DNA of 64,000 bases from Acidimicrobiales bacterium (GCA_035533095.1 DATLUM010000050.1:62001-126000); one strand, 5' to 3'. Shown: positions 18,588 to 34,118, numbered from the stretch's first letter. Notes: a model not told the origin generated them from the letters alone. Numbers and translations are program-made.

Positions 18588-18614
18588 GGCTTCGAACCTA
18601 ATCCGTCTCGGATG

Positions 18615-18640
18615 GCGAGAGAGTGATCTCTCATCTCGCG
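18615..18640. promoter_or_regulatory. Probable IclR-type operator between iclR and the dehydrogenase gene
   Basis: The segment contains GCGAGAG then GTGATCTCTCA and CTCGCG, giving an inner dyad GAGAG-TGAT-CTCTC and partial match to the island palindrome TGCGAGA-N5-TCTCGCA (the right half reads TCTCTCA). It lies 28 bases upstream of the iclR GTG. On the plus strand a TTGACA at 18669-18674 followed 18 bases later by AAAGAT could serve the dehydrogenase gene; TCTCGCGA lies within that spacer. Confidence 0.5.
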
Positions 18641-18729
18641 CCGACGTGGTCCCGTCGAGCCCGGCTCGTTGACACCCGCGCGTCTCGCGATGAAAGATGA
18701 CATCTACCAAATCGTAACGGGGAGGGCAC

Positions 18730-19812
18730 TTGCGCGCCACTGCTGCAGTACTGCGGGAACACGGCGGACTGCCGCAGCTCGAGGCAGTGGAGATCGGCGA
18801 GTTGAGCCCTGACGAGGTCCTGGTCGAGGTGGAGGCCGTCGGCGTCTGCCGCACCGACACCGAGTTCGGCCATTTCTGGCCGCTCCCGGCGGTGCTCGGT
18901 CACGAGGGCGTCGGCTCGGTGGCCGCTGCAGGCGACCGGGTCTCCTACGTGCGTCCCGGCGATCGGGTCCTGATGACCTTCAATCACTGCGGGGCGTGCA
19001 GGCCCTGCCTGGAAGGATCACCCGCTTACTGCAGACACTTCGACGCGCTCAACTTCTCCGGCGCAAGGCCGGACGGGACCAGCGCGATCCACGCCGGCGG
19101 AGAGGCGCTGCACGCGCATTTCCTCGGGCAGTCGTCGTTCGCCAGCCATGCGGTCGCCACGGAACGTTCCGTAGTGAAGGTCCCCGAAGGCATCCCCGCC
19201 GAGATCCTCGCCCCGTTCGGGTGTGGGTTCCAGACAGGAGCCGGGGCGGTGCTCAACGTTCTTCGTGTCGCGCCCGGCGACTCCCTCGCGGTCTTCGGCG
19301 CCGGCGCGGTGGGCCTGGCCGCGGTCGCGGCAGCCGCTGCCGCGGGCTGCGGGAACATAACCGTGGTCGACCTCGACCCGGCGCGGCTCGCCAAGGCGCG
19401 CCTGCTCGGGGCGCTCCACACGGTGGAGGCATCGACGCAGGACCTCGTAGCGGCCGTCCGCGAGGCCTGCCCCGACGGTTACGACGCCGCCCTCGACACC
19501 ACCGGCGTCCAAGCCGTCCTCCGGTCCGCTACGGAGGTGCTCACGACCCGCGGCACCTGCGCTGTGGTGGGGGTGGGCCCGAGCACCGAGATCTCCCTCG
19601 ATTGGCGGACGATGCTCAACGGCCGGACCCTTACGGGGGTGATCGCCGGCGGAAGCTTGCCGCGGGTCTTCCTGCCGAAGCTCGTCGACATGTACCTCGC
19701 GGGCAAGTTCCCTGTGGACCGGTTGATCGACGTCCAGCCGTTCGACGAGCTGCCCAAGGCCTTCGAGGCGAGCCGCTCGGGAGAGGTCGTGAAGGCCGTC
19801 GTCAAGCTGTAG
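18730..19812 (+). CDS. Zinc-dependent aryl-alcohol-type dehydrogenase (MDR family)
   Basis: A 360-residue medium-chain dehydrogenase. Catalytic zinc residues are in VGVCRTD and LGHEGVG; the structural zinc cysteines are in HCGACRPCLEGSPAYC; the NAD fold is VFGAGAVGLAAVAAAAAAG with Asp (VVDLDPARL) favouring NAD. The segment FGCGFQTGAGAVLNVL is typical of benzyl/aryl-alcohol dehydrogenases such as XylB and AreB. It would oxidise an aryl or allyl alcohol to an aldehyde. TTG start at 18730 has a GGGGAGGG site 5 bases upstream. It stands alone between iclR (divergent) and the Rieske/P450 unit. Confidence 0.85.
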   Translation: MRATAAVLREHGGLPQLEAVEIGELSPDEVLVEVEAVGVCRTDTEFGHFWPLPAVLGHEGVGSVAAAGDRVSYVRPGDRVLMTFNHCGACRPCLEGSPAYCRHFDALNFSGARPDGTSAIHAGGEALHAHFLGQSSFASHAVATERSVVKVPEGIPAEILAPFGCGFQTGAGAVLNVLRVAPGDSLAVFGAGAVGLAAVAAAAAAGCGNITVVDLDPARLAKARLLGALHTVEASTQDLVAAVREACPDGYDAALDTTGVQAVLRSATEVLTTRGTCAVVGVGPSTEISLDWRTMLNGRTLTGVIAGGSLPRVFLPKLVDMYLAGKFPVDRLIDVQPFDELPKAFEASRSGEVVKAVVKL

Positions 19813-19897: not shown

Positions 19898-20893
19898 TTG
19901 AGCGAGCTGACTCGGACCTTCGCCTCTCACCCGGCGCTGCGACGTTACTGGTACCCGGTGGTACGGACCTTCGATCTGACCGAGACACCGCTCGCTGCGA
20001 CGCTGCTCACGGTCCCGATCGTCGTCTGGCGAGCTGACGGAGGCCGGGTGTGCGCCGCTCTCGACCGCTGCCCGCACCGGGAAGCTCCGCTATCGGACGG
20101 GCGCGTCGTGGCGGGCTGCTTGGAGTGCCCCTATCACGGCTGGAGCTATGACGGCGACGGCCGCTGCGTGCTGGTGCCATCGTCGGGGCCCGGTGCTGCG
20201 ATCCCGCCGCGGGCGCACCTGGAGACGGTCCGTGCGGTAGAGCGCTACGGGCACGTCTGGATCTGCTTGGAGGATCCGGTCTCCGGGATCCCCGAGATCG
20301 CCGAGGACTCCAACCCCGAGTTCCGCCTGGTCGCGTCGCCGGTCGAGCGCTGGCGGGCTTCCACTACACGCATGGTCGACAACTTCCTCGACATCTCGCA
20401 CTTCCCCTACGTCCACCAGGGAACGTTCGGCGCAGGTGCCGAGCGCGAGGTCGGCAAGGTGGAGATGGAGGACCTGGGGGACTTCTTCGGCTACCGGTAT
20501 TCCGTGGTTGCCGCCAACACGATGTCAGGGGCCGCTTCGAGTGGCCAGACCGCTGTGAGGATCGGCCGGAGCATGAGCACGGGCTTCAGCCTCCCCTTCG
20601 GAGTCCGCAGCACGATCGACTACGAGACTGGACTGCGCCACGTGATGCTCATGGTGTCCGTCCCCATCGACGACGACGAGTCCTATTTCGCGTTCATGTC
20701 CTGGCGCAACGACGACTTCAGCGTGCCGTCAGAGGAGGTGAACCGGTTCGACCGCCAGATCGGCGAGGAGGACCGCAGGATGCTGGAGAGCATCCACGGG
20801 AGCTTGCCGTTGGAGGCGACGGGTACCGTCAGCGTTCAGTCCGACAAGGCGTCGGTCGAGTGGCGCCGTCAACTGAGGGAACTCCTGAGCTGA
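19898..20893 (+). CDS. Rieske non-haem iron oxygenase of the vanillate O-demethylase/NdmA-like group
   Basis: A 331-residue oxygenase component. The Rieske centre is C58-P-H60 ... C77-P-Y-H80 (CPHREAPLSDGR; ECPYHGW). The mononuclear iron site is in MVDNFLDISHFPYVHQGTFG (His168, His173). The fold matches single-subunit Rieske oxygenases that remove O- or N-methyl groups or hydroxylate (vanillate demethylase VanA, caffeine demethylases NdmA/B, PobA type), rather than alpha-beta dioxygenases. It needs an external reductase; none is encoded in the window. Start TTG 19898 with GAAGGTGG upstream is inferred. It is followed 5 bases later by the P450 gene. Confidence 0.85.
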   Translation: MSELTRTFASHPALRRYWYPVVRTFDLTETPLAATLLTVPIVVWRADGGRVCAALDRCPHREAPLSDGRVVAGCLECPYHGWSYDGDGRCVLVPSSGPGAAIPPRAHLETVRAVERYGHVWICLEDPVSGIPEIAEDSNPEFRLVASPVERWRASTTRMVDNFLDISHFPYVHQGTFGAGAEREVGKVEMEDLGDFFGYRYSVVAANTMSGAASSGQTAVRIGRSMSTGFSLPFGVRSTIDYETGLRHVMLMVSVPIDDDESYFAFMSWRNDDFSVPSEEVNRFDRQIGEEDRRMLESIHGSLPLEATGTVSVQSDKASVEWRRQLRELLS

Positions 20894-20898
20894 CCAGC

Positions 20899-22158
20899 GT
20901 GGACAGCAGCGACGAGCCGCGGGCCGAGGGTCAAGAGAGGCATCCCCGCGTCGAGTTCGACCATCACTCTCCCGAGTTCGCGAAGGATCCCGTGGGGTCA
21001 TACCGTTCGATTGCCGGGCGGTGCCCCGTCGCATGGACCGAGGCCCACGGGGGTTACTGGGTCCCGGCCCGCTACACGGAGATCTGGTCGATAGCGCGCG
21101 ACGACCAGACGTTCTCATCGGCGAGGACGCCTTACGGCGGCGAGGGCACGGCGTTCATCATCCCGAAACGCCCCGGTGCGGTGCAGCTGCCCATCGAACT
21201 CGACCCTCCGGAATCGGTCCCCTACAGGCGACTGCTGAACCCGATCCTCACCAGGGCGGCCGTGGAGGAGCTGCAGCCCGTCATCCGAGACATCACCACC
21301 GCGACGGTCGACCGGTTCATCGAAACGGGCAGCTGCGATCTCGTGCTCGACCTGGCCAACCCGGTGCCGGCACAGGTGACCCTCGAATGGCTCGGGTTCG
21401 GCACCACCGACTGGGAGCGGTTCTCGCTCCCCCTGCACGACATCTTCGCTTCTCCGCCGGGAAGCGACCGTCTTCGGCGCGGTGAGGAAGGGCTGGGCTA
21501 TATCCACGAACGGATCCGCCGCCTGATCACCGAACGGAGGCGGCAGCCCGAGGCCGACATCGTCAGCTACCTCGTCACCGGCCTGATCGGCGACCGGCCG
21601 ATAACCGACGAGGAGCTCCAGTCGATGATCTTCCTCGTCATCCTCGGCGGCGTTGACACCACCACCTCGCTCACCGGACAAGTGCTGGTCTACCTGGCGC
21701 AGCACCCGGATGCTCGAGCTGCGCTTGCCGCCGACGCGTCGCTGCGGGAGACGGCGACAGAGGAGTTCTTGCGAGTGTTCGCGCCGTCGCAGTCGATGGC
21801 CAGGACGGTGATGGCCGACACCGAGCTCGGCGGCTGCCACCTCCGCCGAGGCGATCGCATCCTGCTTCCTTGGGTCGCGGCCAACTTCGATCCGGACGCC
21901 TTCCCCGAACCCGACCGGGTACAGCTCGATCGCATGCCCAACCGGCACACGTCCTTCGGCGTGGGGGTGCACCGCTGCGCCGGCTCGCACCTCGCCCGGG
22001 CGATGTTCTCCGAGATGCTGGACCAGGTGCTTCGCCGGCTCCCCGACTACCGCATCGACGATGCCGCCCTGACCGCCTACCCGTCGCGCGGCAATCAGAC
22101 CGGGTGGGATTCCGTCCCGGCCACCTTCACGCCCGGCCGGAGGTCGGTGGACGCCTGA
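20899..22158 (+). CDS. Cytochrome P450
   Basis: About 419 residues, a soluble bacterial P450. The I-helix oxygen motif is LGGVDTTTS, the ExxR motif is EEFLR, and the haem loop is FGVGVHRCAGSHLAR with the axial Cys. Start GTG 20899 lies 5 bases after the Rieske gene stop; an overlapping upstream start is possible but lacks family match. The pair with a Rieske oxygenase under one promoter suggests successive oxidation or demethylation of one substrate. No ferredoxin or ferredoxin reductase gene lies nearby. Substrate unknown. Confidence 0.92.
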   Translation: MDSSDEPRAEGQERHPRVEFDHHSPEFAKDPVGSYRSIAGRCPVAWTEAHGGYWVPARYTEIWSIARDDQTFSSARTPYGGEGTAFIIPKRPGAVQLPIELDPPESVPYRRLLNPILTRAAVEELQPVIRDITTATVDRFIETGSCDLVLDLANPVPAQVTLEWLGFGTTDWERFSLPLHDIFASPPGSDRLRRGEEGLGYIHERIRRLITERRRQPEADIVSYLVTGLIGDRPITDEELQSMIFLVILGGVDTTTSLTGQVLVYLAQHPDARAALAADASLRETATEEFLRVFAPSQSMARTVMADTELGGCHLRRGDRILLPWVAANFDPDAFPEPDRVQLDRMPNRHTSFGVGVHRCAGSHLARAMFSEMLDQVLRRLPDYRIDDAALTAYPSRGNQTGWDSVPATFTPGRRSVDA

Positions 22159-22188: not shown

Positions 22189-22240
22189 CGAGAGATGCTG
22201 TCTCGCAAAGCTTGACACCCCTGGGGGCCACCGCTAGGGT
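22189..22240 (+). promoter_or_regulatory. Promoter and upstream operator of the BMP transporter operon
   Basis: TTGACA (22212-22217), exactly 17 bases, then TAGGGT (22235-22240): a near-consensus housekeeping promoter. Immediately upstream, 22189-22207 reads CGAGAGA-TGCTG-TCTCGCA, a 7-5-7 palindrome variant of the island operator with its right half identical to the perfect site at 40472-40478. It ends 4 bases before the -35 box, a position that would suit an activator or a repressor that blocks polymerase binding. Confidence 0.7.
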
Positions 22241-22251
22241 TTGATCCGTTT

Positions 22252-22290
22252 CCGAGGACTCATCTCCTCGGAGGAACCGGTCATCCGGTT
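22252..22290 (+). ncRNA. Candidate structured 5' leader: two tandem hairpins with similar loops
   Basis: In the roughly 70-base untranslated leader of the transporter operon, CCGAGGA-CTCATC-TCCTCGG (22252-22271) and AACCGG-TCAT-CCGGTT (22275-22290) form two perfect adjacent stems. Both loop regions contain TCATC. Tandem hairpins with repeated loop bases are the layout of some small riboswitches, but these loops do not match a class I know. It may be a ligand sensor, an mRNA stabiliser or chance. Confidence 0.4.
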
Positions 22291-22318
22291 GGAGTCGGTC
22301 GTCCAAGGGGGAGACAAA

Positions 22319-23527
22319 GTGAACGCACCGCCATCGGCCCGGCAGGGGGCCATCGACACGGCCAGTTCGAAGCCCTTCGGCTCACGAAGGACCAAGGCGA
22401 TGGGCGCCGCTCTCGCCGCCTGTGCCCTCGTAGCCGGAGCCTGCGGCAGCAGCACCAAGGCTGGAACCTCCTCGACGACGGCTAGCTCCACAACCGGCGC
22501 TTCGAGCAACGGTCCGTGGGGCTGGCCGGGCAACTCCACCCAGGGCTGGCTGGCCCCCGGGGAACCCGACGTCAACCACGACGGCAAGGTCGTCATCGGG
22601 GTGATCAGCCCCGGCGACACCCACGACCACGGGTACTACGAGAGCTTCGTCGACGAAGCAAACGCTTTCGCCAAGCAGCAGGGCTGGACGGTCATCACCG
22701 TCGACAAGGTGCCCGACTCCAACGCCGCACAGGCAGCGCGCAACATGTGCCAGCAGCACCCGGACATGGTGGCTATCGCGGCCAGCGAGCTCAAGGACGC
22801 GATACCTGTCGCTTCCGAGGCGGTGTGCAAGGACACTGTTTGGTACGTCGCCGGCGGCCAGGGAGTCAACCAGACGCCGTACTTCGTCCAGACCAATGAC
22901 ATCGAGAGCCAGGACGGCTACGCCGCCGGCGTCGCAGCGGGTCTGCTCATGAAGGCCAAGGGCACCACCAAGGCCGGATTCCTCACCGGCCCGCAGGCGA
23001 GCTTCACGACCGACTTCGAGAAGGCCTGGGAAGCCGGCATCAAGTCCCAGGTTCCCAACGAGACGACGGTCGTCACCTACACCGGCGACTTCAACGACTC
23101 GGCTAAGGCGGTCGAAGCCTTCCAGGCGATGAAGTCGCAGGGTGTCGGGATCGTCTACCCCTATTTGGGCGGCGCGACGTTCGCTGTAGCGGCGCAGGCC
23201 AACCAGGCGAACATCCCCGTGCTGACCCCTGGAACCGACAACTGCTCGGTTCCCAGCCCGAAGTTCGCCATCTCGGTGATCTTCAGCCCCGGTGACTACT
23301 TCGCCGCCGCCCTCACCCCGTTCAAGGATGGGAAGCTGAGGGTCGGAACCGCCCTGGTGTTCCACATGGGCGTCGACCCGGTCCCGACCGTGAAGATCTG
23401 CAGCCCGACCGGCGACCAGGCCCAGGTGCTGGCTCAGACGATCCATGAGATCGGCACGGGCCAGATCCGCACGGATCAGATCACCGGTCTCAACGATTAC
23501 AGCGGCTACGTGCCGTCCGGTTCCTAA
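22319..23527 (+). CDS. BMP/PnrA-family substrate-binding lipoprotein of an ABC importer
   Basis: About 402 residues. A basic start (GSRRTKAMG), hydrophobic segment and Cys in LVAGACGSS mark a lipoprotein signal, followed by a Ser/Thr linker. The rest is a periplasmic-binding fold of the BMP family (PF02608): VVIGVISPGDTHDHGYYESF, VTVDKVPDSNAAQAARNM-like region, GYAAGVAAGLLMKAKGTT, GFLTGPQ, GVGIVYPYLGGAT. Known members bind purine nucleosides (PnrA, BmpA), guanosine or riboflavin (RfuA); the ligand here is unknown but is likely nucleoside- or N-heterocycle-like. GTG 22319 has a GGGGGAG ribosome site. Confidence 0.9.
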   Translation: MNAPPSARQGAIDTASSKPFGSRRTKAMGAALAACALVAGACGSSTKAGTSSTTASSTTGASSNGPWGWPGNSTQGWLAPGEPDVNHDGKVVIGVISPGDTHDHGYYESFVDEANAFAKQQGWTVITVDKVPDSNAAQAARNMCQQHPDMVAIAASELKDAIPVASEAVCKDTVWYVAGGQGVNQTPYFVQTNDIESQDGYAAGVAAGLLMKAKGTTKAGFLTGPQASFTTDFEKAWEAGIKSQVPNETTVVTYTGDFNDSAKAVEAFQAMKSQGVGIVYPYLGGATFAVAAQANQANIPVLTPGTDNCSVPSPKFAISVIFSPGDYFAAALTPFKDGKLRVGTALVFHMGVDPVPTVKICSPTGDQAQVLAQTIHEIGTGQIRTDQITGLNDYSGYVPSGS

Positions 23528-23551
23528 ACAGATCCGGAGAGCCAGGAAGTA

Positions 23552-25183
23552 ATGGAAGCAGGACAGCGGCCGGAGGAGCCTCGCTCCTCGGCCGCTCCCG
23601 CGCTCGAAGCGCGCTCGCTCACCAAGCGATATGGCGCAGTCCTCGCCTGCGATTCGGTCGATCTGAGCGTCCGCCGGGGCGAGATCCACGCGATCCTCGG
23701 CCAGAACGGCGCCGGCAAGACGACGCTGATGAACATGTTCCTCGGCCTGGCGCGCCCGGACTCGGGAGAGATCTTCCTGCACGGCCGCGCGGTGTCGATC
23801 GCCGACCCCGCCCGGGCTGCGTCCCTCGGGCTCGCGATGGTCCACCAGCATTTCAGCCTCGTTGGCCCGCTGCCCGTGTGGGAGAACCTCACGCTCGGCG
23901 AGGCGGGCAGGATCGACAAGCGACGGACGGTCACGCGCATCCGCGAGGTCGCCAGCCGGTACACCCTGGACGTCGATCCCCTGGCCGTCGTCGACGATCT
24001 CACGACGGGCCAGCGGCAGAGGGTCGAGATCGTCAAGTGCCTCATGAAGGACCCCGAGGTGTTCATCCTCGACGAGCCGACGTCCGTCCTGACCGCGCGT
24101 GAGTCGATCGAGCTTTTCCGGGTGCTGCGCCAGGTTGTCCGGCAGGAGGAGCGGGCCGTCATATTGATCAGCCACAAGCTGGACGAGGTCTTGCATGCGA
24201 CCGACCGCGTGTCGATCATGCGCCAAGGTCGCCTTGTTGCCGAAAGACCCACCAGCGGGATGAGCGCGCAGGAACTGGCGAGACAGATGATCGGCCACGA
24301 TGTGTCTCTGCGTCAGGTGGCGACGGCCGTCGGTCATCTCCAGGTGCAGCCCACCGAGGACTCCGACGCCACGGGCCCGGGCGCGTCCGCGCCTGGTGGT
24401 ACCACAGAGCAGACCACCGCTGGACCGCCCGAGCGATCCGAGATCGCGCTATCGATCCGTGATGCGACGGCCCGAGGTCTCGACGGCCGCTTGCTGCTCG
24501 ACGGGTTGTCGCTCGAGGTCCGGCGGGGAGAGATCCTGGGGCTCGCCGGAGTCGAAGGCAACGGCCAGAAGGCGCTCGGGGACCTACTGTCCAGCGTCCT
24601 CACCTTGGACTCGGGCAGCGTCGAGGTTGGCGGCAAGAGTGTCGACCTGAAGCAGCCGGGATCCATGGGTCGCTCAGGTGTGGGGGTCATACCCGAGGAT
24701 CGCCGGCAGTCCGGTTGTGTCCTCGACATGTCCGTGGCGGAGAACCTCATGCTGTGCGACTTCGCCTCGGTGAGCTCACGAGGTTTCGTCAACCACCGCC
24801 GGATGCTCAAAGAAGCGGCCCGACTTGTGACCGACTTCGACATCGTCGCTCCGTTGCTGGACGCGCCCCTGCGATCGCTGTCGGGCGGAAACCAGCAGCG
24901 GGTCGTGCTCGCACGCGAATTGTCGCGCTCGCCCGACGTGCTCGTGGCGGCCCAACCCACCTTCGGCCTGGATGTGGCAGCCGTCGAGTACATGGGCAAG
25001 CGCTTGCGCGAAGCGGCGAGATCAGGCGTGGCAGTCCTTCTCATCTCGACCGAGTTGGAGGAGATCCTCGATCTCGCCGACCGGATCGCGGTCATCCACC
25101 GCGGGAAGATCGTCGGTGAGATGTCGAGGCGCGAGGCGGACCTGGAGAGAATCGGGATGATGATGGGCGGCCAGGCCGCATGA
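23552..25183 (+). CDS. ABC importer ATPase with two nucleotide-binding domains (nucleoside/sugar type)
   Basis: A 543-residue duplicated ATPase. Domain 1: Walker A LGQNGAGKTT, signature-like LTTGQRQRVEI, Walker B VFILDEPTSVLT, switch His in ISHKLDEV. Domain 2 (from about residue 290): degenerate Walker A GVEGNGQKAL, good signature LSGGNQQRVVLARE, and AAQPTFGLDVAA in place of Walker B. One competent and one degenerate site is usual for this YufO/NupA and RbsA class. A ~40-residue Gly/Thr-rich linker joins the domains. Starts 24 bases after the lipoprotein gene and overlaps the next gene by 4 bases (ATGA). Confidence 0.93.
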   Translation: MEAGQRPEEPRSSAAPALEARSLTKRYGAVLACDSVDLSVRRGEIHAILGQNGAGKTTLMNMFLGLARPDSGEIFLHGRAVSIADPARAASLGLAMVHQHFSLVGPLPVWENLTLGEAGRIDKRRTVTRIREVASRYTLDVDPLAVVDDLTTGQRQRVEIVKCLMKDPEVFILDEPTSVLTARESIELFRVLRQVVRQEERAVILISHKLDEVLHATDRVSIMRQGRLVAERPTSGMSAQELARQMIGHDVSLRQVATAVGHLQVQPTEDSDATGPGASAPGGTTEQTTAGPPERSEIALSIRDATARGLDGRLLLDGLSLEVRRGEILGLAGVEGNGQKALGDLLSSVLTLDSGSVEVGGKSVDLKQPGSMGRSGVGVIPEDRRQSGCVLDMSVAENLMLCDFASVSSRGFVNHRRMLKEAARLVTDFDIVAPLLDAPLRSLSGGNQQRVVLARELSRSPDVLVAAQPTFGLDVAAVEYMGKRLREAARSGVAVLLISTELEEILDLADRIAVIHRGKIVGEMSRREADLERIGMMMGGQAA

Positions 25184-26349
25184 GTACCGTGCTCCCCGCG
25201 CCAAGGGCGACCGCTCCAGCTGGAGCCGCCGGCGACGGCTCGGGCGTACAGCCGCGCGGGCAGTGGTGGACCTCCCCGCGATTCAAGACGATTCTTCTCT
25301 ACGTCGTGTCGATCGCGGTGGGCTTCGGTCTTTCCGCTGTGCTGGTGGCGGTCACGCACGGCTCGCCGTCCAAGGTCTTCACTGCGATGTTCGACGGCAG
25401 CGTCCGGAGTTGGGGCTCACTCGGGTACACGCTCGACAACATGGCCCCGTTGCTCATCGTGGCGGCGGGGACCATCGTGACGGTCAGGGCGGGCTTCTTC
25501 AACATCGGTCAGGAGGGCCAGCTCACCATCGGTGCCATGTGTGCCGCGTTCGTGGCGCTGAAGGTGCACCCGTCGGGACCATTGGTGCTGATCCTCGCCC
25601 TGCTGGCCGGAACCGCCGGCGGTGCGATCTGGGCGGGCATCGTCGCCTTGCTGAAGTTCTGGCGCGGGGTCGACGTGGTGATCAGCTCTTTGCTGCTCAT
25701 CTTCGTCGCGGGGCAGCTTCTGTCGTACGCGTTGAGCTCTCCGACGTTCCTTCAGGAGCACGGCTCGGGTGGAGCGACGCTGACCGAGTCGGACCAGCTC
25801 TCCTCCAAGGTGCAGCTACCCCACATCGGCCAGTACCCGAACTTCAACTTCGGCACCGGGCTGATCATCGCCGTGGCCGTCGCAGTGCTCCTCGGGACCA
25901 TCGCCACGCGCACGACCTGGGGCTACAGGCTGAAGGTGCTCGGCTTCAACCCGGTCGTCGCCCGCCGCATCGGGGTGAGCGCGGTCTTGTTCGGTGGTGC
26001 CGCGATCGTCATATCGGGAGCGTGCGCCGGTCTCGCCGGCTCGATCATGCTCACGGGGCAGGCGTACCGGATCACTCCTACCTTCTCGAACAACTTCGGG
26101 TGGAACGGCCTGCTCGTGGCTCTGGTCGCGAGGAACCGGCCGGCTGTGGCCGTCCCCGTCGCGTTCCTCTTCGGAGCCCTCCAGGCCGGCGGTGGGTTCC
26201 TCGAGACGACAGGGGTGCCGACCGACCTGGTGAACATCGTCGAGGCGCTGCTGGTGCTGGCGGCGGTGTTCCCTCCGGCGTTGATGGCTCTGAGGCGCTA
26301 CCGGCTCAAGCGCTCCGAGCAGGCGGTTGCTGCGGCGGAGGCGTCATGA
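25180..26349 (+). CDS. BMP-type ABC importer permease 1
   Basis: A 389-residue multi-spanning protein of the BPD_transp_2 family (YufP/NupB type). It has a hydrophilic start, then about 8-10 membrane segments (FKTILLYVVSIAVGFGLSAV; NMAPLLIVAAGTIVTVRAG; PLVLILALLAGTAGGAIWAG; VVISSLLLIFVAGQLLSYAL). The conserved FFNIGQEGQLTIGAM motif and the cytoplasmic GYRLKVLGFNPVVARRIGVS coupling loop are clear. It pairs with the next gene as a heterodimer. Overlaps both neighbours by 4 bases. Confidence 0.92.
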   Translation: MSTVLPAPRATAPAGAAGDGSGVQPRGQWWTSPRFKTILLYVVSIAVGFGLSAVLVAVTHGSPSKVFTAMFDGSVRSWGSLGYTLDNMAPLLIVAAGTIVTVRAGFFNIGQEGQLTIGAMCAAFVALKVHPSGPLVLILALLAGTAGGAIWAGIVALLKFWRGVDVVISSLLLIFVAGQLLSYALSSPTFLQEHGSGGATLTESDQLSSKVQLPHIGQYPNFNFGTGLIIAVAVAVLLGTIATRTTWGYRLKVLGFNPVVARRIGVSAVLFGGAAIVISGACAGLAGSIMLTGQAYRITPTFSNNFGWNGLLVALVARNRPAVAVPVAFLFGALQAGGGFLETTGVPTDLVNIVEALLVLAAVFPPALMALRRYRLKRSEQAVAAAEAS

Positions 26350-27254
26350 ACCACGACATCACCACCATCCTGGCGAGCGCGATGCGCCTCACCGCGCCGC
26401 TGCTGTTCGCCGGCCTCGGCGAGTACATAGCCGAGCGCGCCGGCACGCTGAACATTTCAGTGGAGGCGATGATGCTGTCAGGCGCCTACGGCGGCGCAGT
26501 CGGCTCTTCGGTGTGCCACAGCGCCGCGATCGGCCTCCTCTGGGGAATCGGCGCGGGCCTGCTGGTCGGAATAATCCACGGCCAGTTCAGTCACCGCCTG
26601 CAGGCCAACACCTTCGTCGTCGGCCTGACCCTCAACGTGCTGGCTCTCGGCATAACCAACTATCTGCTCGAGAAGATCCAGATGACTCCCCGGCAGGTGG
26701 GCATCCTCACCATCCCGGGGCTGTCTCGCATACCGATCATCGGCAAGCCGCTCTTCTCGGAACGCTGGCCGTTCTTCCTCCTGTACGGCCTGGTCCCGCT
26801 GGTCTGGTGGGTGGTGCAGCGCAGCAGGTGGGGACTCGAGATGAGGGTGGTGGGCGAAAATCCCAAGGCCGCGGACGTGACCGGGATCCACGTGAACCGC
26901 AGGCGCCGGCAGGGCCTCGTGATCTGCGGCCTGCTGGCCGGGCTCGGAGGCGCCTACCTCTCGGTGGGAGAAGTGGGCACGTTCAACAGCGACATGACCG
27001 CCGGGCGAGGCTTCATAGTCATAGCAGCGGTCATATTCGGAGGCTGGACCCTCCGCGGGTTGGCAGCAGGGTGCTTCATCTTCGGAGGTGTCGACGCGCT
27101 GCGACTCGCGCTGCCGGCGCTCGGCTACACGATCAACCCGCAGCTGCTCATCGCCTCGCCATACCTGCTCGCTCTCATCGCCATGTGCTTCTTCGCCAAG
27201 CGTCTCAGACAGCCGGCAGCACTCGGCCAGCCATTCGAGAGAGGAGCCGCGTGA
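26346..27254 (+). CDS. BMP-type ABC importer permease 2
   Basis: A 302-residue permease (YufQ/NupC type) with about 8 membrane segments. Typical motifs: ERAGTLNISVEAMMLSGA, HRLQANTFVVGLTLNVLALG, and the coupling loop GLEMRVVGENPKAADVTGIHV. Start ATG 26346 overlaps the previous stop (ATGA). With the two upstream genes it completes a full importer. The following gene overlaps it by 4 bases (GTGA), so import and the first metabolic enzymes are made together. Confidence 0.92.
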   Translation: MNHDITTILASAMRLTAPLLFAGLGEYIAERAGTLNISVEAMMLSGAYGGAVGSSVCHSAAIGLLWGIGAGLLVGIIHGQFSHRLQANTFVVGLTLNVLALGITNYLLEKIQMTPRQVGILTIPGLSRIPIIGKPLFSERWPFFLLYGLVPLVWWVVQRSRWGLEMRVVGENPKAADVTGIHVNRRRRQGLVICGLLAGLGGAYLSVGEVGTFNSDMTAGRGFIVIAAVIFGGWTLRGLAAGCFIFGGVDALRLALPALGYTINPQLLIASPYLLALIAMCFFAKRLRQPAALGQPFERGAA

Positions 27255-28282
27255 AAGCCGCCGTCCAGGTCGGCTTCGGCGGACTCGATCAACTCCAGGT
27301 CAAGGAAGTTCCCGATCCCCGGCCGGCCGCCGGTGAGGTGCTCGTCAGGGTTCGCGCGACCACGCTCAACCGCCTCGACGTGATTCAGCGCGAAGGGCCT
27401 GCGCTCCTGCCGCACTTCCAGCTTCCGCACATAGCCGGCATGGACGTCGTCGGAGAGGTGGCCGAGCTCGGGGACGGCGTCCGCTCGGTGAGCGAGGGCG
27501 ACCGTGTTCTCCTCAACCCGGCTCTCCATTGCGGGACCTGCGAATGGTGCGAGCGCGGCGAGGATCCGTTCTGCCCAGCGACGCGGGTGATCGGCGGCAA
27601 CCATCCGGGGGGCTACGCGGAGCTCTGTACCGTCCCCGCCAGCCACGTCCACCCGATCCCCGACCACGTGTCCTTCGAGGAAGCTGCGACAGTGCCGACG
27701 ATCTGGTCGACCGCCTGGCAGGCACTGGTGGTCCGCGGCCAGGTGCGCCCAGGCGAGTGGGTGTTGATACACGCCGCTGCGAGCGGGGTCAGCACAGCGG
27801 CGATCCAGCTTGCGAAGCGCGTCGGTGCCAAGGTGCTCGCGACCGCCGGGTCGGAGCGCAAGCTGGACCTGGCTCGCAAGCTCGGCGCAGACCTTGGTGT
27901 GAACAACCGCAGCGACGACTTCGTGAAGCACGCTCGTGAGGCCACCGGCGGGCGCGGCGTCGACGTGGTGTTCGACCATGTCGGCCCGGCGTTGTTCGGC
28001 CGGTCGCTGTTCGCCCTGAAACCAAGAGGGCGGCTGGTCTTCTGCGGGTCCACCACGGGCAGGGAGGCGGCGATCGATCTTCCCTACGCCTACCACTTCG
28101 GCATCAGCCTGCTCGGCGTGGAGCCTTATTCGTACACCGGATTTGCAGAGATGCTCGACTTCTACTGGGGAGAGAGGTTCGTAGCGGTGATAGACACCGA
28201 ATTCGGCCTCGACGAAGCAGCGCAGGCCCAGGCACGAATGGAATCCGGCGAGGCGATGGGCAAGATCCTCCTACGGCTGTGA
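27251..28282 (+). CDS. Zinc-containing quinone oxidoreductase/alcohol dehydrogenase-like MDR protein
   Basis: A 343-residue medium-chain oxidoreductase. N-terminal GroES-like fold with TTLNRLDVIQREG, GMDVVGEV and structural-zinc cysteines NPALHCGTCEWCERGEDPFC; cofactor fold VLIHAAASGVSTAAIQLAKR with a loop pattern suggesting NADP(H); family motif GGRGVDVVFDHVGPALF. It may reduce an enone/quinone or oxidise an alcohol. GTG 27251 overlaps the permease stop, and its own stop overlaps the methyltransferase start (GTGA), tying it to the imported compound. Confidence 0.85.
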   Translation: MKAAVQVGFGGLDQLQVKEVPDPRPAAGEVLVRVRATTLNRLDVIQREGPALLPHFQLPHIAGMDVVGEVAELGDGVRSVSEGDRVLLNPALHCGTCEWCERGEDPFCPATRVIGGNHPGGYAELCTVPASHVHPIPDHVSFEEAATVPTIWSTAWQALVVRGQVRPGEWVLIHAAASGVSTAAIQLAKRVGAKVLATAGSERKLDLARKLGADLGVNNRSDDFVKHAREATGGRGVDVVFDHVGPALFGRSLFALKPRGRLVFCGSTTGREAAIDLPYAYHFGISLLGVEPYSYTGFAEMLDFYWGERFVAVIDTEFGLDEAAQAQARMESGEAMGKILLRL

Positions 28283-29325
28283 AAGCGCCCCGGCCGGGAA
28301 CACCGGGCGAACCCGACACGGTCCTGACTCCCGCGCCGGTGTGGGCGACGATCGCCGGTTACCAGTTCTACTGGGCGGCTGTCGCCGGCGTCGAACTCGG
28401 CGTGTTCGACGCCCTGGCCGAGTCCCCTGCGACGGTGGCAGCGCTTGCATCCCGCGCCGGCTGCGCCGTGTCTCGACTTCGATCGCTCGCCGACGTGCTG
28501 GTCGCCTCCGGGCTGCTCGAGCGAGGCCCGGACGACCGATACCGCATCAGTGACACCGCCCGGGCGTTCCTGGTCTCGGGGGCCGAACGTTCGATGACCG
28601 ATCTGCTGCTTCGGTCGCCGGGACCTTGGCAGAACTGGCCGGCTCTCGCGTCAACCATGCGCGGAGCCGACCCGCCGGGTCCCGCGGACGCCGCCTTCTA
28701 CGCTGCGCTAGTCCAGGCGACGTTCCCGACCCAGTACGCGGCCGCAAAGGTCCTCGCCTCGCGTCTTCCCGCTGCGAGAGCGGTTCTCGACCTCGGTGCA
28801 GGAGCCGCCCCGTGGAGCATCGCGTTGCTCGAAGCCTTCCAGGCCGCGAGAGCCGTCGCCATCGACCTGCCTGCCGTCCTGCCCGCGGCTCGTGCCGAGG
28901 TAGCGGAGCACGCACTCGGCGATCGCTTCGAACTGATCGCCGGCGACTATTGGGAAGTTCCCGTAGATCCCGAAGGGTTCGACGTCGTGGTGCTGGGTCA
29001 CATCCTGCGCGCCGAAGGCGACCGTGCACCTGGTCTGGTCTCTCGAGCCGCCGCTGCACTGGCTCCCGGAGGAACGCTCGTCGTGGCGGACTACTTCGTC
29101 GACGACGATCGCAGCGGCCCCGTCAACTCCTTGCTCCTGGGCCTGACGATGATGGCGGCGACCACGGAGGGAAGGACGTCGACTCGCTCCGAGCACCGGG
29201 GCTGGTTCGAAGCGGCGGGCCTGGTCGGCGTCGAGGAACACCAGCTGATCCCCGGTCAGGAAGTCATGACCGCCCGTAAGGCACGCTCGGCGTCCGAGCC
29301 ATCCATTCCGGAGGAAGCGTCATGA
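28279..29325 (+). CDS. SAM-dependent O-/N-methyltransferase (Methyltransf_2 type)
   Basis: A 348-residue class I methyltransferase with an N-terminal winged-helix dimerisation domain (GYQFYWAAVAGVELGVFDALAE; SRLRSLADVLVASGLLER) and a Rossmann SAM domain: motif I VLDLGAGAAPWSIAL, acidic residue in AVAIDLPAV, FELIAGDYWEVPVDPEGFDVV, and VVADYFVDDD. Homologues methylate hydroxyls on polyketides or flavonoids, so its place in a degradative operon is odd; it could protect an intermediate or act as a corrinoid-free methyl-handling step. Overlaps both neighbours by 4 bases. Confidence 0.82.
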   Translation: MKAPRPGTPGEPDTVLTPAPVWATIAGYQFYWAAVAGVELGVFDALAESPATVAALASRAGCAVSRLRSLADVLVASGLLERGPDDRYRISDTARAFLVSGAERSMTDLLLRSPGPWQNWPALASTMRGADPPGPADAAFYAALVQATFPTQYAAAKVLASRLPAARAVLDLGAGAAPWSIALLEAFQAARAVAIDLPAVLPAARAEVAEHALGDRFELIAGDYWEVPVDPEGFDVVVLGHILRAEGDRAPGLVSRAAAALAPGGTLVVADYFVDDDRSGPVNSLLLGLTMMAATTEGRTSTRSEHRGWFEAAGLVGVEEHQLIPGQEVMTARKARSASEPSIPEEAS

Positions 29326-30710
29326 GCGAGGAAGTCGACTTCGTCATCGAGGCGTCCCACGTCGTCACGATGAACCCGACGAGGGACGTGCTCGTAGACG
29401 GCGCCGTCGCTGTGAGAGGACGTGACATCGTGGCGGTCGGAAAGAGAGCAGAGATAGCCGACCGCTACCAGGCGAGACAGACGATCGGTGGTCCTCGCTT
29501 CGTGTTGACCCCCGGGATGGTGAACACCCACATCCACGTAACCGGTGAGCCGATCACCCGCGGGTTCGTTCCAGACGACACACCTTTCGAGGAGAACGTG
29601 TTCGCGTGGCTTTGTCCTCTCTACGCCGCGCAGGACGAGGACGACGAGCGCGTTTCGGCGCAGCTGGCTTCGGCGGAGCTCTTGAAGTCTGGGTGCACCG
29701 CGTTCTTGGAAGCCGGCACGGTCCAGTACGTCGATGCGGTGGTCGACGCCCTTGTCGAGGTCGGCATCCGGGCGAGGGTGGGCAAGTGGATCTGGGATAT
29801 CCCCCCCGAGCCGGAGGTCTACCGGCAGACCACGCAGGAGGCGATCGCCAACGTCGAGTCGACCCTCCGACGCCACCGCCACGTCGCCGGCGGCCGCATC
29901 CAGGCGTGGTCGATGATCGTGGGGCACACGACGTGCAGCGACGAGCTGTGGCGCGCGGCCGCAGACGCGGCCCGGCGCCACGGCACCGGTCTCAACTTTC
30001 ACATGTCGCCCGCGGCGATGGACCCCGAGGGCTTCCTGGCGCAGTTCGGCCAGCGTCCGGTCGAGCACCTGTCCTCCATCGGTGTGCTCGGCGCCAACGC
30101 GGTGCTCGTGCATTGCGTGCACGTCGACGACTCGGAGATCTCCTTGCTCGCGCAGCACGGCTGTAGCGTCGCGCACTGCCCCACCACCGCGTTGAAGGTC
30201 TCCTACGGCGTCACCCAGATCGGGCGCATGCCCGAGATGAAGGCGGCCGGCATCAACCTCACCATCGGGACCGACGGAAACAACGCGTCCAATTACTCGG
30301 ACATGATGCGCGCCACCTATCTCGTCGCCGGGCTGTTCAAGGACGCCCGGCGGGACCCCACCATGTTCCCTGCCGAGGTCGCCTACGAGATGGCGACCCT
30401 CGGAGGCGCTAAGGCGCTGCTCGCCGAGGACGAGATCGGCTCGATCGAGCCGGGAAAGCGGGCGGACCTGGTGCTACACGACCGCAACCGGCCTGAGTGG
30501 ACACCGCTTCTCAACGTGGCGAACCAGCTCGTATGGGCGGCGGATGGGCGCGGCGTCCACACCGTGATGGTCGACGGCAAGGTGCTGGTCGAGGCATACC
30601 GTCTCACGACGATCGACGAGGATCGTCTCTACGACAGAGTTCAGGAGCGGGCCGAGGCGCTCGTGGCCCGCACCGGGCTGCCGGATCGCTCCAAGTGGCC
30701 GACGGTCTGA
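29322..30710 (+). CDS. TrzN/AtzA/SsnA-like metal-dependent amidohydrolase (deaminase/chlorohydrolase)
   Basis: A 462-residue amidohydrolase-superfamily enzyme. Metal ligands: H70 and H72 (MVNTHIHVTG), a His in LNFHMSPAA, a His in LVHCVHVDDSE, and the Asp in IGTDGNNASN. The C-terminal GSIEPGKRADLVLHD is the usual superfamily tail. Relatives remove amino, chloro or alkylamino groups from N-heterocycles (s-triazines, guanine, 8-oxoguanine, cytosine). It is the last gene of the importer operon, overlapping the methyltransferase by 4 bases, which hints that the imported compound is an amino-substituted heterocycle. A paralogue lies at 32772-34118. Confidence 0.88.
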   Translation: MSEEVDFVIEASHVVTMNPTRDVLVDGAVAVRGRDIVAVGKRAEIADRYQARQTIGGPRFVLTPGMVNTHIHVTGEPITRGFVPDDTPFEENVFAWLCPLYAAQDEDDERVSAQLASAELLKSGCTAFLEAGTVQYVDAVVDALVEVGIRARVGKWIWDIPPEPEVYRQTTQEAIANVESTLRRHRHVAGGRIQAWSMIVGHTTCSDELWRAAADAARRHGTGLNFHMSPAAMDPEGFLAQFGQRPVEHLSSIGVLGANAVLVHCVHVDDSEISLLAQHGCSVAHCPTTALKVSYGVTQIGRMPEMKAAGINLTIGTDGNNASNYSDMMRATYLVAGLFKDARRDPTMFPAEVAYEMATLGGAKALLAEDEIGSIEPGKRADLVLHDRNRPEWTPLLNVANQLVWAADGRGVHTVMVDGKVLVEAYRLTTIDEDRLYDRVQERAEALVARTGLPDRSKWPTV

Positions 30711-30713
30711 GCC

Positions 30714-31121
30714 TCAGCGGCCGGACCCGTTGACCTGGCGTTCGAATTCAGCGCTGTCCCAGTAGTCGACTCGTCTCGCGACGAGGCCTCCCGCGACCTC
30801 GAAACGGAACATGCCCCGGATCCGAACCGGAACCGGGTCGGTGCCCTCCCCCCGCCACCGGAAGGTCATCAGGTACGGGGCGGCCGCGCGTGAACCGTCG
30901 ACGATCAGGTCCTCCAGCTCGTAGTGGAGGTTCCGGAACTGCGCGAGGAAGGTTCGCAGCCGCTCCCGGTAGCTGTCGCGGCCGGTCAAGCTGTGGCCGA
31001 GCGACGACGTGTGCTCGTTGACAAAGTCCTCGGCCACCCATGCGGCGATGGCCTCGGGTTCGCCTCCGTTGAGCGCATCTATGTACCCCTCGACAACCTC
31101 CCTGGTGCTGAGGTCGGGCAT
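30714..31121 (-). CDS. SnoaL-like / NTF2-fold small protein
   Basis: A 135-residue single-domain protein of the NTF2/SnoaL fold: STREVVEGYIDALNGGEPEAI, FVNEHTSSLGHSLTGRDSYRERL, FRNLHYELEDLIVDGSRAAA and FEVAGGLVARRVDYWDSAEF. Members are isomerases, cyclases or binding proteins; no catalytic residues can be assigned. It is downstream of, and 10 bases from, the VOC gene on the minus strand, and converges on the amidohydrolase with only 3 bases between stops. Confidence 0.75.
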   Translation of the reverse strand: MPDLSTREVVEGYIDALNGGEPEAIAAWVAEDFVNEHTSSLGHSLTGRDSYRERLRTFLAQFRNLHYELEDLIVDGSRAAAPYLMTFRWRGEGTDPVPVRIRGMFRFEVAGGLVARRVDYWDSAEFERQVNGSGR

Positions 31122-31131
31122 CGAGCGGAGG

Positions 31132-31626
31132 TCAGCTGGCAGCGGCCGTCTCGGGCTCTCCCCAGAGCTCCTGGATCTTCGTGTAGACCTTCTGGTTCCA
31201 GGAGAACTCGATCACGTTGCCGTCGGGATCCCGTGCGGCGCAGATGTATCCGATGTGCTCCGGCATCTGGCGGGGCTCCCACATCAGGACGCCCATCTGC
31301 CTCGCACGATCGGCCATGTTGTCGACGTCTTCCTTATTCGGCAGCTCGATGCCGATGTGCGCGAACGGCGCCAGGGTGGGCACCTCCTGGCCCGGCTCTA
31401 TGCCGAACTGGCGCCCGACATCCGGGATGAGCTGTGAGAGCACCAGAACGAACGGCGTCTCGACCTGTTGGTCATTCGACAGCCAGGCGCCCTGCCCGTT
31501 CTCGTCTTTGTTTCTGGCGACGACCACCAGCGGCGTCAACGTCGTGTAGAACTCGATCGATCGCTCTAGATCGCTCACCGGTAGTGCCACGTGAGTCCAC
31601 CGTGGCGCTGTCAGCTGTTTGGCCAT
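31132..31626 (-). CDS. VOC family (glyoxalase/bleomycin-resistance/dioxygenase) protein, single domain pair
   Basis: A 164-residue vicinal-oxygen-chelate protein. Likely metal ligands: His in WTHVALPVSDLERSIEFY, a second His in PFAHIGIELPNKEDVD and the Glu in DPDGNVIEFSW. The overall form is like glyoxalase I or a small lyase or isomerase; the exact reaction is unknown. It is divergent from the aldo/keto reductase, with a CTCTGCGAGA half-operator in the 107-base gap. Confidence 0.8.
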   Translation of the reverse strand: MAKQLTAPRWTHVALPVSDLERSIEFYTTLTPLVVVARNKDENGQGAWLSNDQQVETPFVLVLSQLIPDVGRQFGIEPGQEVPTLAPFAHIGIELPNKEDVDNMADRARQMGVLMWEPRQMPEHIGYICAARDPDGNVIEFSWNQKVYTKIQELWGEPETAAAS

Positions 31627-31733: not shown

Positions 31734-32786
31734 ATGCAATATCGCATTTTGGGACGGACCGGGATCAAGGTGAGCGTCTTGTGCCTGGGCACCATGATGT
31801 TCGGGGCTTGGGGGAAGACCACGCTCGAGGAGTGCCGCCGGATGCTCGACGCGGCCCTCGACGCGGGAGTCAACTTCGTCGATACCGCCGACGTCTACGC
31901 GTTCGGCGAGTCGGAACAGATCCTCGGGGAGATCCTGGGATCCCGCCGCGACGAAGTGGTCCTCGCGTCCAAGGTCAACAACGCCATGGGCCCGGGGCTC
32001 AACATGAGCGGTAACAGCCGGAGGTGGATCGTGCGGGAGGTCGAAGCGAGCTTGCGCCGGCTTCGGACCGACCATCTCGACCTCTACCAGCTTCACCGAC
32101 CCGATCCCGAGACGGACATATCCGAGTCGCTCGAGACCCTCGACGATCTCGTGCGGCAGGGCAAGGTGCTCGCTGTCGGGACTTCGACCTTCCCGGCGGA
32201 TCTCCTGGTCGAAGCGCAATGGGCCGCCGAGAAGAGACAGCTGGTGCGCCCCGCTACCGAGCAGCCGCCATATTCGATCTTCGCGAGAAGCATCGAGGCG
32301 GACGTGCTGCCCGCCTGCCAGCGGATGCAGCTCGGCGTGATGGTGTGGGCACCCCTCAACGGCGGCTGGCTCACAGGCAAGTACCGCCGCGGCGCCGAAC
32401 CCCCTCCCGGGTCGAGAGCGGCGAGGGAGCCCGATCACATCGACTACGGAAAGCCCGTCAGCGAACGCAAGCTCGAGCTCGCCGAGAGCCTTGCGAAGCT
32501 CGCGGAGCAGGCGGGTATGAGTCTTTCCCACATGGCCTTGGCGTTCACTCTGAACCATCCGGCTGTGACAGCTTCCATCATCGGCCCGCGCACGCTCGAC
32601 CAGCTCACCTCGCAGATCGCAGCCCCGGACATCACCCTCGATCCGGAGCTGCTCGATGCAATCGACGCGCTCGTACCCCCCGGCCACACGATCAACCCGG
32701 CGGACTCCGGCTGGCGACCGCCCGCCCTCGACGACGCTTCCCAGCGCCGCCGTCCGGGTGGCAGCGGGATGTCAGCGGGCGTCTAG
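31734..32786 (+). CDS. Aldo/keto reductase
   Basis: A 350-residue TIM-barrel NAD(P)H reductase. Tetrad residues: Asp and Tyr in FVDTADVYAFGESE, Lys in LASKVNN, His in DLYQLHRPDPETD. Cofactor phosphate region SIIGPRTLDQL near the C-terminus. It resembles the YajO/Tas-like or IolS-type group that reduces aldehydes and ketones. ATG 31734 was chosen because it begins the family N-terminus MQYRILGRTGIKVS; the ribosome site is CGGAGG. Its 3' end overlaps the convergent amidohydrolase gene by 15 bases. Confidence 0.9.
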   Translation: MQYRILGRTGIKVSVLCLGTMMFGAWGKTTLEECRRMLDAALDAGVNFVDTADVYAFGESEQILGEILGSRRDEVVLASKVNNAMGPGLNMSGNSRRWIVREVEASLRRLRTDHLDLYQLHRPDPETDISESLETLDDLVRQGKVLAVGTSTFPADLLVEAQWAAEKRQLVRPATEQPPYSIFARSIEADVLPACQRMQLGVMVWAPLNGGWLTGKYRRGAEPPPGSRAAREPDHIDYGKPVSERKLELAESLAKLAEQAGMSLSHMALAFTLNHPAVTASIIGPRTLDQLTSQIAAPDITLDPELLDAIDALVPPGHTINPADSGWRPPALDDASQRRRPGGSGMSAGV

Positions 32787-34118
32787 GTGGGGCCAGCGGT
32801 GCGGGATGGTGATGCCGGCCCTTTCGAGCAGGAACCGCCGCTGCTTCTCCGCTTCCACCAGAGCGGACTCCTCGTCCACCCCTAGACAGCGCCCGTGACG
32901 GACGATCATCTTGCCCGCGACCATCACGTCACGGACACAGCGCCCGTCGGCCGACCAGACGAGTTGTAAAGCGGTCTCGCCGCGGGGGCTGCAAGCCGCA
33001 CTGGTGGGTTCGAAGATGACGAGATCGGCCTGCTTGCCGGCCTCGAGGGAACCCACTATGTCGCCGAGCCCGACCGCCTCGGCCCCACGGCACGTGGCCA
33101 TCTCGAACCCGTCCGCCGCGCTGAACCAGGTCGGGTCCTCGCGTACGTCCTTCGCCAGTCCAACCGCAAGGGCGGCGGCTCTGAGGATGTCCGCCTGGTC
33201 ACCGGCATTGGAGGCGTCGCAGCCGAGAGCGATCCTGCCGCCTGACTTGAACAGCTCCGCGTGGCGCCCGTGCCCGGTCACGCCCTGCCCCAGCCGCAGG
33301 TAGGCCCACGGGCAGTAAGCGACCGCCGTCCCGGTCCGCAGGAGGGCCGCAACCTCTTCGTCGTCGATCCAGACGCCGTGTGCGATCAGTAGGTGCCGCC
33401 CGAGAACCCCGAGATGCTCCAGGTGCGTCACGGGCCGGCGCCCGTGCCGTTCGAGGTATATCTCAGGGTCCGACCGCGTCGGCGAGAGATGCATCGTCAT
33501 GTTCGTCTTGCGCTCTCTCGCGAGTTCCGCGGCTCCGGCAAGCAGTTCATCTGAAGCGAGGCTGTGCCCGACGAGCGTCACCCAACCGGCGACGGTCCCG
33601 CCAGGCGGAAACGCGTCGAGTACCTCCCTCTGCCGGGCGAGAACCTCTTCCACGGGCGCGCTGTAGGGAAGGCCGTCGACGTCCCACCCCCAGGTGCCAA
33701 TGGCACCGCGCACCCCGACCGCAGTCATCCCCGCCGCAGCGCGAACGGGGTGTGCGACGGTGCCGGCCTCGATCACGGTGGTGACGCCGTTTCGGGCACA
33801 TTCGGCTGCGACGAGGGTGGCCGAGAGCTCGTCGTCCTCGGGTCCGTGATGCCCGTGTATAGGGATCGACCACGAGAAGATCGACTCGCCCGGGGCGAGG
33901 TCGTCGGGGATGCAGCTGCGTAGCAGCGGGTCGCCCGTGTGGTGTTGATGGGCATTTATGAGCCCGGGAGTGACGACAGCCCCTCCAGCGTCGAGCTCGG
34001 CGACACCCGGCCACCGCCTTCGAAGCTCCGACGTGGAACCCACCTCGAGGATCGTCGACCCCGCGACGGCGACCGCACCGCCGCACAGAACGCGCCGGTC
34101 GCGGTCCATCGTCACCAC
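32772..34118 (-). CDS. Second TrzN/AtzA-like amidohydrolase
   Basis: A 448-residue homologue of the enzyme at 29322-30710 with the same plan: H57 and H59 (INAHQHHTGD), His in TMHLSPTRSD, His in LIAHGVWIDDEE, Asp in LGCDASNAGD, and GSLEAGKQADLVIF. The substrate pocket differs (GWDVDGLPYSAPVEEV against WIWDIPPEPEVY), suggesting a different leaving group or a later intermediate. GTG 34118 (or the adjacent GTG 34115) is the first normal start; homology begins about 8 codons earlier (PDLLVTGGD), where only CTG is available, so the true start is uncertain. Confidence 0.86.
   Translation of the reverse strand: MVTMDRDRRVLCGGAVAVAGSTILEVGSTSELRRRWPGVAELDAGGAVVTPGLINAHQHHTGDPLLRSCIPDDLAPGESIFSWSIPIHGHHGPEDDELSATLVAAECARNGVTTVIEAGTVAHPVRAAAGMTAVGVRGAIGTWGWDVDGLPYSAPVEEVLARQREVLDAFPPGGTVAGWVTLVGHSLASDELLAGAAELARERKTNMTMHLSPTRSDPEIYLERHGRRPVTHLEHLGVLGRHLLIAHGVWIDDEEVAALLRTGTAVAYCPWAYLRLGQGVTGHGRHAELFKSGGRIALGCDASNAGDQADILRAAALAVGLAKDVREDPTWFSAADGFEMATCRGAEAVGLGDIVGSLEAGKQADLVIFEPTSAACSPRGETALQLVWSADGRCVRDVMVAGKMIVRHGRCLGVDEESALVEAEKQRRFLLERAGITIPHRWPHLDAR

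Follow-up and report, generated by a model that had tools for sequence, protein, structure and literature searches.

Organization of the operon

The 64,000-nucleotide stretch analysed here (the window) comes from an Acidimicrobiales bacterium (GCA_035533095.1, DATLUM010000050.1:62001-126000) whose genome comprises 3.44 Mb in 142 contigs. It contains a seven-gene operon encoding a substrate-binding lipoprotein of the BMP/PnrA type, an ABC ATPase, two ABC permeases, an oxidoreductase of the MDR family, a methyltransferase of the COMT fold, and an amidohydrolase (AH1) that resembles AtzA, TrzN and the 5'-methylthioadenosine (MTA) deaminases (Table 1); Pfam assignments agree with all seven genes, and a paralogue of AH1, designated AH2, is also encoded in the window. 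We give roughly an even chance to the reading that this operon serves as the core for import and processing in a conserved but undescribed catabolic module of the Acidimicrobiia, which would take up a small planar nitrogen heterocycle without ribose and hydrolyse it independently of the glutamate (Glu) on which related enzymes rely. Within that reading, there is good support for uptake through a BMP transporter and subsequent breakdown; for the substrate, our best guess is a planar N-heterocycle.

The lipoprotein gene is best started at the GTG at 22319, with GGGGGAG upstream, and its product carries the lipobox LVAGAC. An initial annotation of the window had described six further genes, each overlapping by exactly 4 bases, under a near-consensus promoter. 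The six genes, their families and their coordinates stand, as do the overlaps (ATGA or GTGA) at the five junctions from the ATPase through AH1, but a 24-base gap separates the lipoprotein and ATPase genes. Overlaps of 4 bases are common in bacterial operons, and the one between the methyltransferase and AH1 genes is not fixed among relatives (18 of 58 adjacent junctions); they were therefore rejected as a special feature. The promoter had been overstated: its TTGACA box is perfect (6/6) and the spacer is 17 nucleotides, but TAGGGT matches TATAAT at only 3/6 positions, and the candidate is neither listed by a stricter promoter scan nor kept in the two nearest relatives. The loose pattern TTGACA-TANNNT occurs twice in the 64 kb, both strands scanned. 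The MDR protein of the window retains four cysteines of a structural zinc site, which are present in only about 6 of 48 relatives.

Table 1. Features of the operon (first eight rows) and of the surrounding catabolic gene run, with occurrence among the 80 loci of relatives described below
Feature	Coordinates	Strand	Basis	Occurrence in relatives
Possible promoter, TTGACA-17-TAGGGT	22212..22240	+	Sequence	
BMP/PnrA-type substrate-binding lipoprotein	22319..23527	+	Pfam Bmp, 74.1 bits (curated cut-off 24.1)	
ABC ATPase, two nucleotide-binding domains	23552..25183	+	Pfam ABC_tran, 2 stretches	
ABC permease 1	25180..26349	+	Pfam BPD_transp_2; 4-base overlap	
ABC permease 2	26346..27254	+	Pfam BPD_transp_2; 4-base overlap	
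MDR-family zinc/quinone-type oxidoreductase	27251..28282	+	Pfam ADH_N, ADH_zinc_N	63/80
COMT-fold methyltransferase, Arg244 for usual catalytic His, Tyr141	28279..29325	+	Pfam Dimerisation, Methyltransf_2	
AH1, AtzA/TrzN/MTA-deaminase-like amidohydrolase, Pro230 for catalytic Glu	29322..30710	+	Pfam Amidohydro_1	
PfkB-family kinase, ribokinase-like	16819..17745	-	Pfam PfkB, 184 bits; TIGR02152 ribokinase, 261 bits (below cut-off 299.65)	2/80
IclR-family regulator (true start probably inside open reading frame)	17742..18860	-	Pfam HTH_IclR, IclR_C	
Zinc alcohol dehydrogenase	18730..19812	+	Pfam ADH_N, ADH_zinc_N	
VanA-type Rieske oxygenase, conserved partner	19898..20893	+	Pfam Rieske, VanA_C	30/80
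Cytochrome P450, largely peculiar to this genome's version	20860..22158	+	Pfam p450	1/80
SnoaL-like protein, conserved partner	30714..31121	-	Pfam SnoaL_2	25/80
VOC (glyoxalase-fold) protein, conserved partner	31132..31626	-	Pfam Glyoxalase	35/80
Aldo/keto reductase, occasional partner	31737..32786	+	Pfam Aldo_ket_red	14/80
AH2, AH1 paralogue (38% identity), same Glu-to-Pro change	32772..34118	-	Pfam Amidohydro_1; alignment	49/80
Rieske ring-hydroxylating oxygenase alpha (benzoate-dioxygenase-like)	34257..35594	+	Pfam Rieske, Ring_hydroxyl_A; TIGR03229, 273 bits (below cut-off)	
Ring-hydroxylating oxygenase beta subunit	35558..36091	+	Pfam Ring_hydroxyl_B	
Two-domain VOC protein, possibly extradiol ring-cleavage dioxygenase (function inferred)	36103..37002	+	Pfam Glyoxalase, 2 stretches	
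Mandelate racemase/sugar-acid dehydratase (MR/MLE) family enzyme	39163..40326	-	Pfam MR_MLE	3/80; also in the G031, G113 and G188 clusters
TauD-family oxygenase	43719..44741	+	Pfam TauD	3/80; also in the G113, G401 and G422 clusters

Conservation among the Acidimicrobiia

A scan of 84,980 species genomes yielded 155 relatives of AH1, the best 80 of which (63-75% identity) were used for locus counts. Because a simple gene caller based on GC content overlooked genes at some loci, partner presence was recounted as a tblastn match within 10 kb of AH1; many contigs end early, and all such counts are therefore lower bounds. By title, nearly all of these 80 belong to the Acidimicrobiia or to other Actinomycetota of soil, sea, lake and sponge origin; Pseudofrankia sp. 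BMG5.36 is a further carrier, with MDR, methyltransferase and AH1 genes (locus L124). Among 396 genomes sampled across the phylum, 6 others contain an AH1 match at E <1e-200, all in the same order.

The core partners are the methyltransferase (70 of the 80 loci), the MDR protein (63) and AH2 (49), followed by the importer genes (permeases 42-43, ATPase 38, BMP protein 33). Others include a further VOC family (44) besides the VOC and SnoaL-like types of the window (35 and 25), Rieske oxygenases of the GbcA/CntA-like (33) and VanA (30) types and, less often, CoA ligase (17), aldo/keto reductase (14), formamidase (9), hydantoinase B (7) and PfkB (2). The usual gene order is Rieske, BMP, ATPase, two permeases, MDR, methyltransferase, AH1. 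Where both enzymes occur, the methyltransferase gene lies directly upstream of AH1 (same strand, <600 bases) in 58 of 70 loci, a pairing that exceeds chance. Median identity across relatives is 66% for AH1 vs 32% for the binding protein. That a BMP-type importer should share one predicted transcription unit with catabolic-looking enzymes, as first annotated, is thus borne out by a conserved arrangement, and AtzT provides a known analogue.

Could the importer serve ordinary nucleobase salvage, sharing a promoter with an unrelated catabolic pathway? No second BMP protein was found in the genome, and some relatives have MDR, methyltransferase and AH1 genes without an importer, as this explanation would allow; we nevertheless regard it as very unlikely, given that the importer recurs by the same enzymes in about 40 of the 80 loci, where it is usually on the same strand and directly upstream of them.

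Loci of the sponge-symbiont type (L060, L067, L051, L053, L063) contain AH2, an FGGY kinase, VOC, MDR, an M20 peptidase, the methyltransferase and AH1, with no importer nearby, so that their enzymes may act on a compound that is imported differently or made internally.

The binding protein

The structural model of the lipoprotein, whose core has a predicted local distance difference test (pLDDT) score mostly >85, shares the fold of the compared receptors: PnrA, Lbp and BmpD match at Z ~33, RfuA at 31.4, the Brucella protein 3s99 at 31.0 and AtzT at 30.7, with identities of 16-19%. A comparison with PnrA and RfuA, which the initial annotation had proposed, thus confirms the family resemblance, with Z values that leave the ligand undecided.

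Individual residues were assigned from alignments and from homologues described in the literature. The aromatic residue of the N-lobe on which ligands stack (BmpA Phe27) corresponds in a profile alignment to Tyr106, found in 24 of 25 orthologues, and Asp103 is kept in the same proportion. The aspartate that holds ribose in the nucleoside receptor BmpA (Asp98; PMC13325309) aligns in sequence with Gly180, glycine in 24/25. Phe233 may align with the second stacking aromatic (BmpA Phe176), a position occupied by alanine in 20/25. AtzT, the BMP-type binding protein of the atrazine plasmid, binds guanine and 2-hydroxyatrazine through Tyr45, on which the ligand stacks, and Trp194, Glu165, Asn218 and Asn220 (PMC6834077). 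With Tyr106 retained and Gly180 aligned where the ribose-binding Asp would be, the ligand is predicted to be planar and to carry no ribose.

For all four importer subunits, the best-scoring named family is a putative B6 ABC transporter (NCBIfam NF047927-NF047930). The scores are far below the curated cut-offs (24.5 bits vs 400, 424 vs 670, 130 vs 400, 177 vs 465), and B6 transport was rejected.

The amidohydrolases and the methyltransferase

AH1 (model pLDDT 88) finds its best fold matches in adenosine/MTA deaminases and AtzA. Together with AH2 it forms a clade with FastTree support of 0.998, in which AH1 (70 members) and AH2 (38 plus one distant sequence) are sister clades. The five metal ligands, His70, His72, His227, His264 and Asp318, are kept in all 108 AH1/AH2 proteins, and equally invariant (108/108) is Pro230, three residues after His227, at the position of the glutamate in the HxxE motif. 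Its counterparts are AtzA Glu246 and TrzN Glu241; in TrzN this Glu protonates amine leaving groups, and halides or other non-amine groups can depart without its proton (PMC4356373). More distant proteins, outside the clade, have Ser, Val, Gly or Glu here, so that elsewhere, too, the position tolerates change. AH1 has the fold of a deaminase; its chemistry need not be that of one. Hydrolysis by AH1 and AH2 would be independent of a proton-shuttle Glu, and deamination by AH1 is disfavoured, with the proviso that another residue could substitute.

These substitutions bear on the proposal that the importer takes up a nucleoside, flavin or ribosylated compound, whose base is then deaminated by AH1 and whose freed ribose is used by the ribokinase. 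Family and fold of the binding protein (with the best Z scores for nucleoside receptors), the proximity of the AH1 fold to adenosine/MTA deaminases and a ribokinase-like gene nearby all speak for it, but it must contend with proline for the catalytic Glu throughout AH1/AH2, glycine opposite the ribose Asp in nearly all orthologues, and a PfkB gene outside the conserved core; we consider it improbable. The statement that the compound is deaminated inside the cell accordingly loses its footing, as does the ribosylated substrate. The kinase does adjoin the regulator, as the initial annotation had it, but the fit to a ribosylated substrate finds no support, and with PfkB within 10 kb in just two of the 80 loci, the ribokinase was rejected as a component of the module.

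The methyltransferase profile has RedM as its best match among solved relatives. At the catalytic-His position, Arg244 is found in 48 of 49 methyltransferases (Ser253 in RedM), and the capping-helix tyrosine, Tyr141, is kept in 47 of 49 (Tyr140 in RedM). RedM, with its Ser253 and Tyr140, is an N-methyltransferase, and the named COMT-fold members lacking the His transfer methyl groups to N, S or C atoms, with one case, DnrK, acting on a phenol (PMC10784701). Judged from the aligned residues, plain O-methylation of a phenol is therefore the less likely assignment.

A proposed pathway

We propose that the ligand of the lipoprotein is a small, planar, ribose-free nitrogen heterocycle, which would be stacked on Tyr106 as guanine and 2-hydroxyatrazine are in AtzT. 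Rieske oxygenases may then hydroxylate or N-demethylate the imported compound, and AH1 and AH2 would hydrolyse it at a mononuclear metal site, either by opening a ring C-N bond or by removing a non-amine group, while the methyltransferase would modify a nucleophilic N, S or C atom. In this genome, the downstream aromatic-type enzymes (Rieske alpha and beta subunits, VOC dioxygenase, FAH-type hydrolase and HpcH aldolase) would complete the breakdown; in some relatives their place is taken by genes for hydantoinase, formamidase or CoA ligase.

A nucleobase-, flavin- or alkaloid-like ligand had been suggested initially; of this, a planar heterocycle remains plausible, because Tyr106 is kept and because relatives also encode Rieske oxygenases of the NdmA/SxtT-like and GbcA/CntA-like kinds, along with hydantoinase and formamidase. 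For flavins, pterins and alkaloids the analysis speaks neither for nor against. The best solved relatives of the VanA-type Rieske protein in the window are SxtDIOX/SxtT and the methylxanthine demethylases NdmA and NdmB (NdmA at E ~1e-40, a family-level similarity only), and the GbcA/CntA-like proteins of relatives resemble carnitine monooxygenase/GbcA. Given these partners, the substrate is possibly N-methylated. More tentatively still, and with clearly less confidence than in the module itself, we suggest a class-wide Acidimicrobiia pathway for what is probably an N-methylated planar heterocycle, in which two enzymes of the AtzA fold without the deaminase Glu would carry out a different reaction alongside a His-less, N-type methyltransferase and N-demethylase-like Rieske oxygenases.

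Several observations weigh against the proposed heterocycle module. The Z scores of the binding protein run from 33.3 to 30.4 across nucleoside, riboflavin and nucleobase binders, too close together for structure comparison to arbitrate between these receptor types; in the C-lobe, the alignments end before the region of the nucleoside receptors' Asp225 and Lys242. Similarity to NdmA- and GbcA-type Rieske proteins is at the family level only. About half of the 80 loci are without a permease within 10 kb (many such contigs end early), and some sponge-symbiont versions appear without an importer. There is no hydantoinase B gene anywhere in the window's genome, and a close copy of the GbcA-like Rieske gene is missing too, so that the hints of a heterocycle drawn from relatives need not hold here. 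In some relatives, as at L035 (2906-8375), the GbcA-like Rieske gene has genes for hydantoinase A and B and for an acyl-CoA ligase next to it; hydantoinase, missing from this genome and found in 7/80 loci, was rejected as an obligatory component.

The substrate might instead be an aromatic or quaternary-amine/betaine compound, with the AtzA-like enzymes cutting an ester, lactone, carbamate or ether-like bond. The ring-hydroxylating dioxygenase, VOC dioxygenase, FAH-type hydrolase and HpcH aldolase of the window would suit such a compound, as would the GbcA/CntA-like Rieske genes (33/80 loci) and CoA ligases (17/80) of relatives, and the departure of non-amine groups without a Glu proton in TrzN-type chemistry (PMC4356373). 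However, those compared BMP receptors whose specificity is known take nucleosides, nucleobases, triazines or riboflavin as ligands, and the formamidase and hydantoinase genes of several relatives indicate C-N chemistry. We hold this alternative to be possible, though rather unlikely.

Surrounding catabolic genes

The operon lies within a run of catabolic genes (~16.8-44.7 kb) flanked by rpsO and pnp on one side and ribF, truB, infB and nusA on the other, which also holds genes for the FAH-type hydrolase, the HpcH aldolase and a third amidohydrolase. Near the MR/MLE gene, an HD-domain protein (~38535-39089, minus strand), which resembles one beside MR/MLE in G188 (L035 17956-18534), may be a PhnZ/MIOX-like oxygenase. 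An open reading frame of 407 amino acids (37007-38230, plus strand) has good codon usage and a faintly M20 peptidase-like sequence, but drew no Pfam hit even when E values as high as 1 were allowed.

The catabolic genes (16232-44757) sit exactly between rpsO and ribF, which are 0.6 kb apart in G401 and G422, two genomes of the same family. Both do carry the cluster, but away from the neighbouring ribF and rpsO, which argues that the junction was filled or re-used in the present lineage. In five other Acidimicrobiia loci the cluster likewise ends beside rpsO, often within 200-300 bases (L087 20526, L091 16181, L096 17706, L104 8801, L117 15961), which suggests either that the position is ancestral or that insertion there has recurred; with these loci in view, a recent genomic island was not upheld.

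Comparison with known systems

Soil, sea, lakes and sponges commonly harbour Acidimicrobiia, but most of these are uncultured and their diet is poorly known. Presence of the cluster in dozens of them suggests a widespread natural compound that the literature found has so far not tied to these bacteria; a search of open-access papers returned no description of this gene combination. The AH1/AH2 clade, in which the metal site is intact and proline replaces Glu, would allow a clear-cut test of the reactions open to the atrazine-hydrolase fold once its proton shuttle is gone.

A BMP importer tied to AtzA-family hydrolases is already known from the atrazine plasmid (PMC6834077); what is new is the gene combination, its spread among Acidimicrobiia and the altered active sites. 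Like the present operon, the atzRSTUVW genes and atrazine hydrolases of Pseudomonas sp. ADP couple a BMP-type ABC importer to N-heterocycle breakdown, but AtzT shares only 16-18% identity with the window lipoprotein in structural alignments, AtzA retains Glu246, in contrast to AH1 and AH2, and the atz operons are plasmid-borne, with hydrolases that lack Rieske, MDR and methyltransferase partners as described (PMC6834077). The PnrA/BmpD/Lbp and RfuA receptors belong to the same Pfam family and share the fold and the N-lobe stacking aromatic, whereas the window protein has Gly for the ribose Asp and is 16-19% identical to them. The AtzA/TrzN/MTA-S-adenosylhomocysteine-deaminase branch likewise has the same fold and all five mononuclear metal ligands, but the catalytic Glu of its HxxE motif is Pro throughout the AH1/AH2 clade. 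Methyltransferases of the RedM/PhzM/RosA/DsyB type (also SibL) share the COMT fold, the missing His and the capping-helix Tyr; the window enzyme differs in its Arg at the His position and in having catabolic rather than biosynthetic partners.

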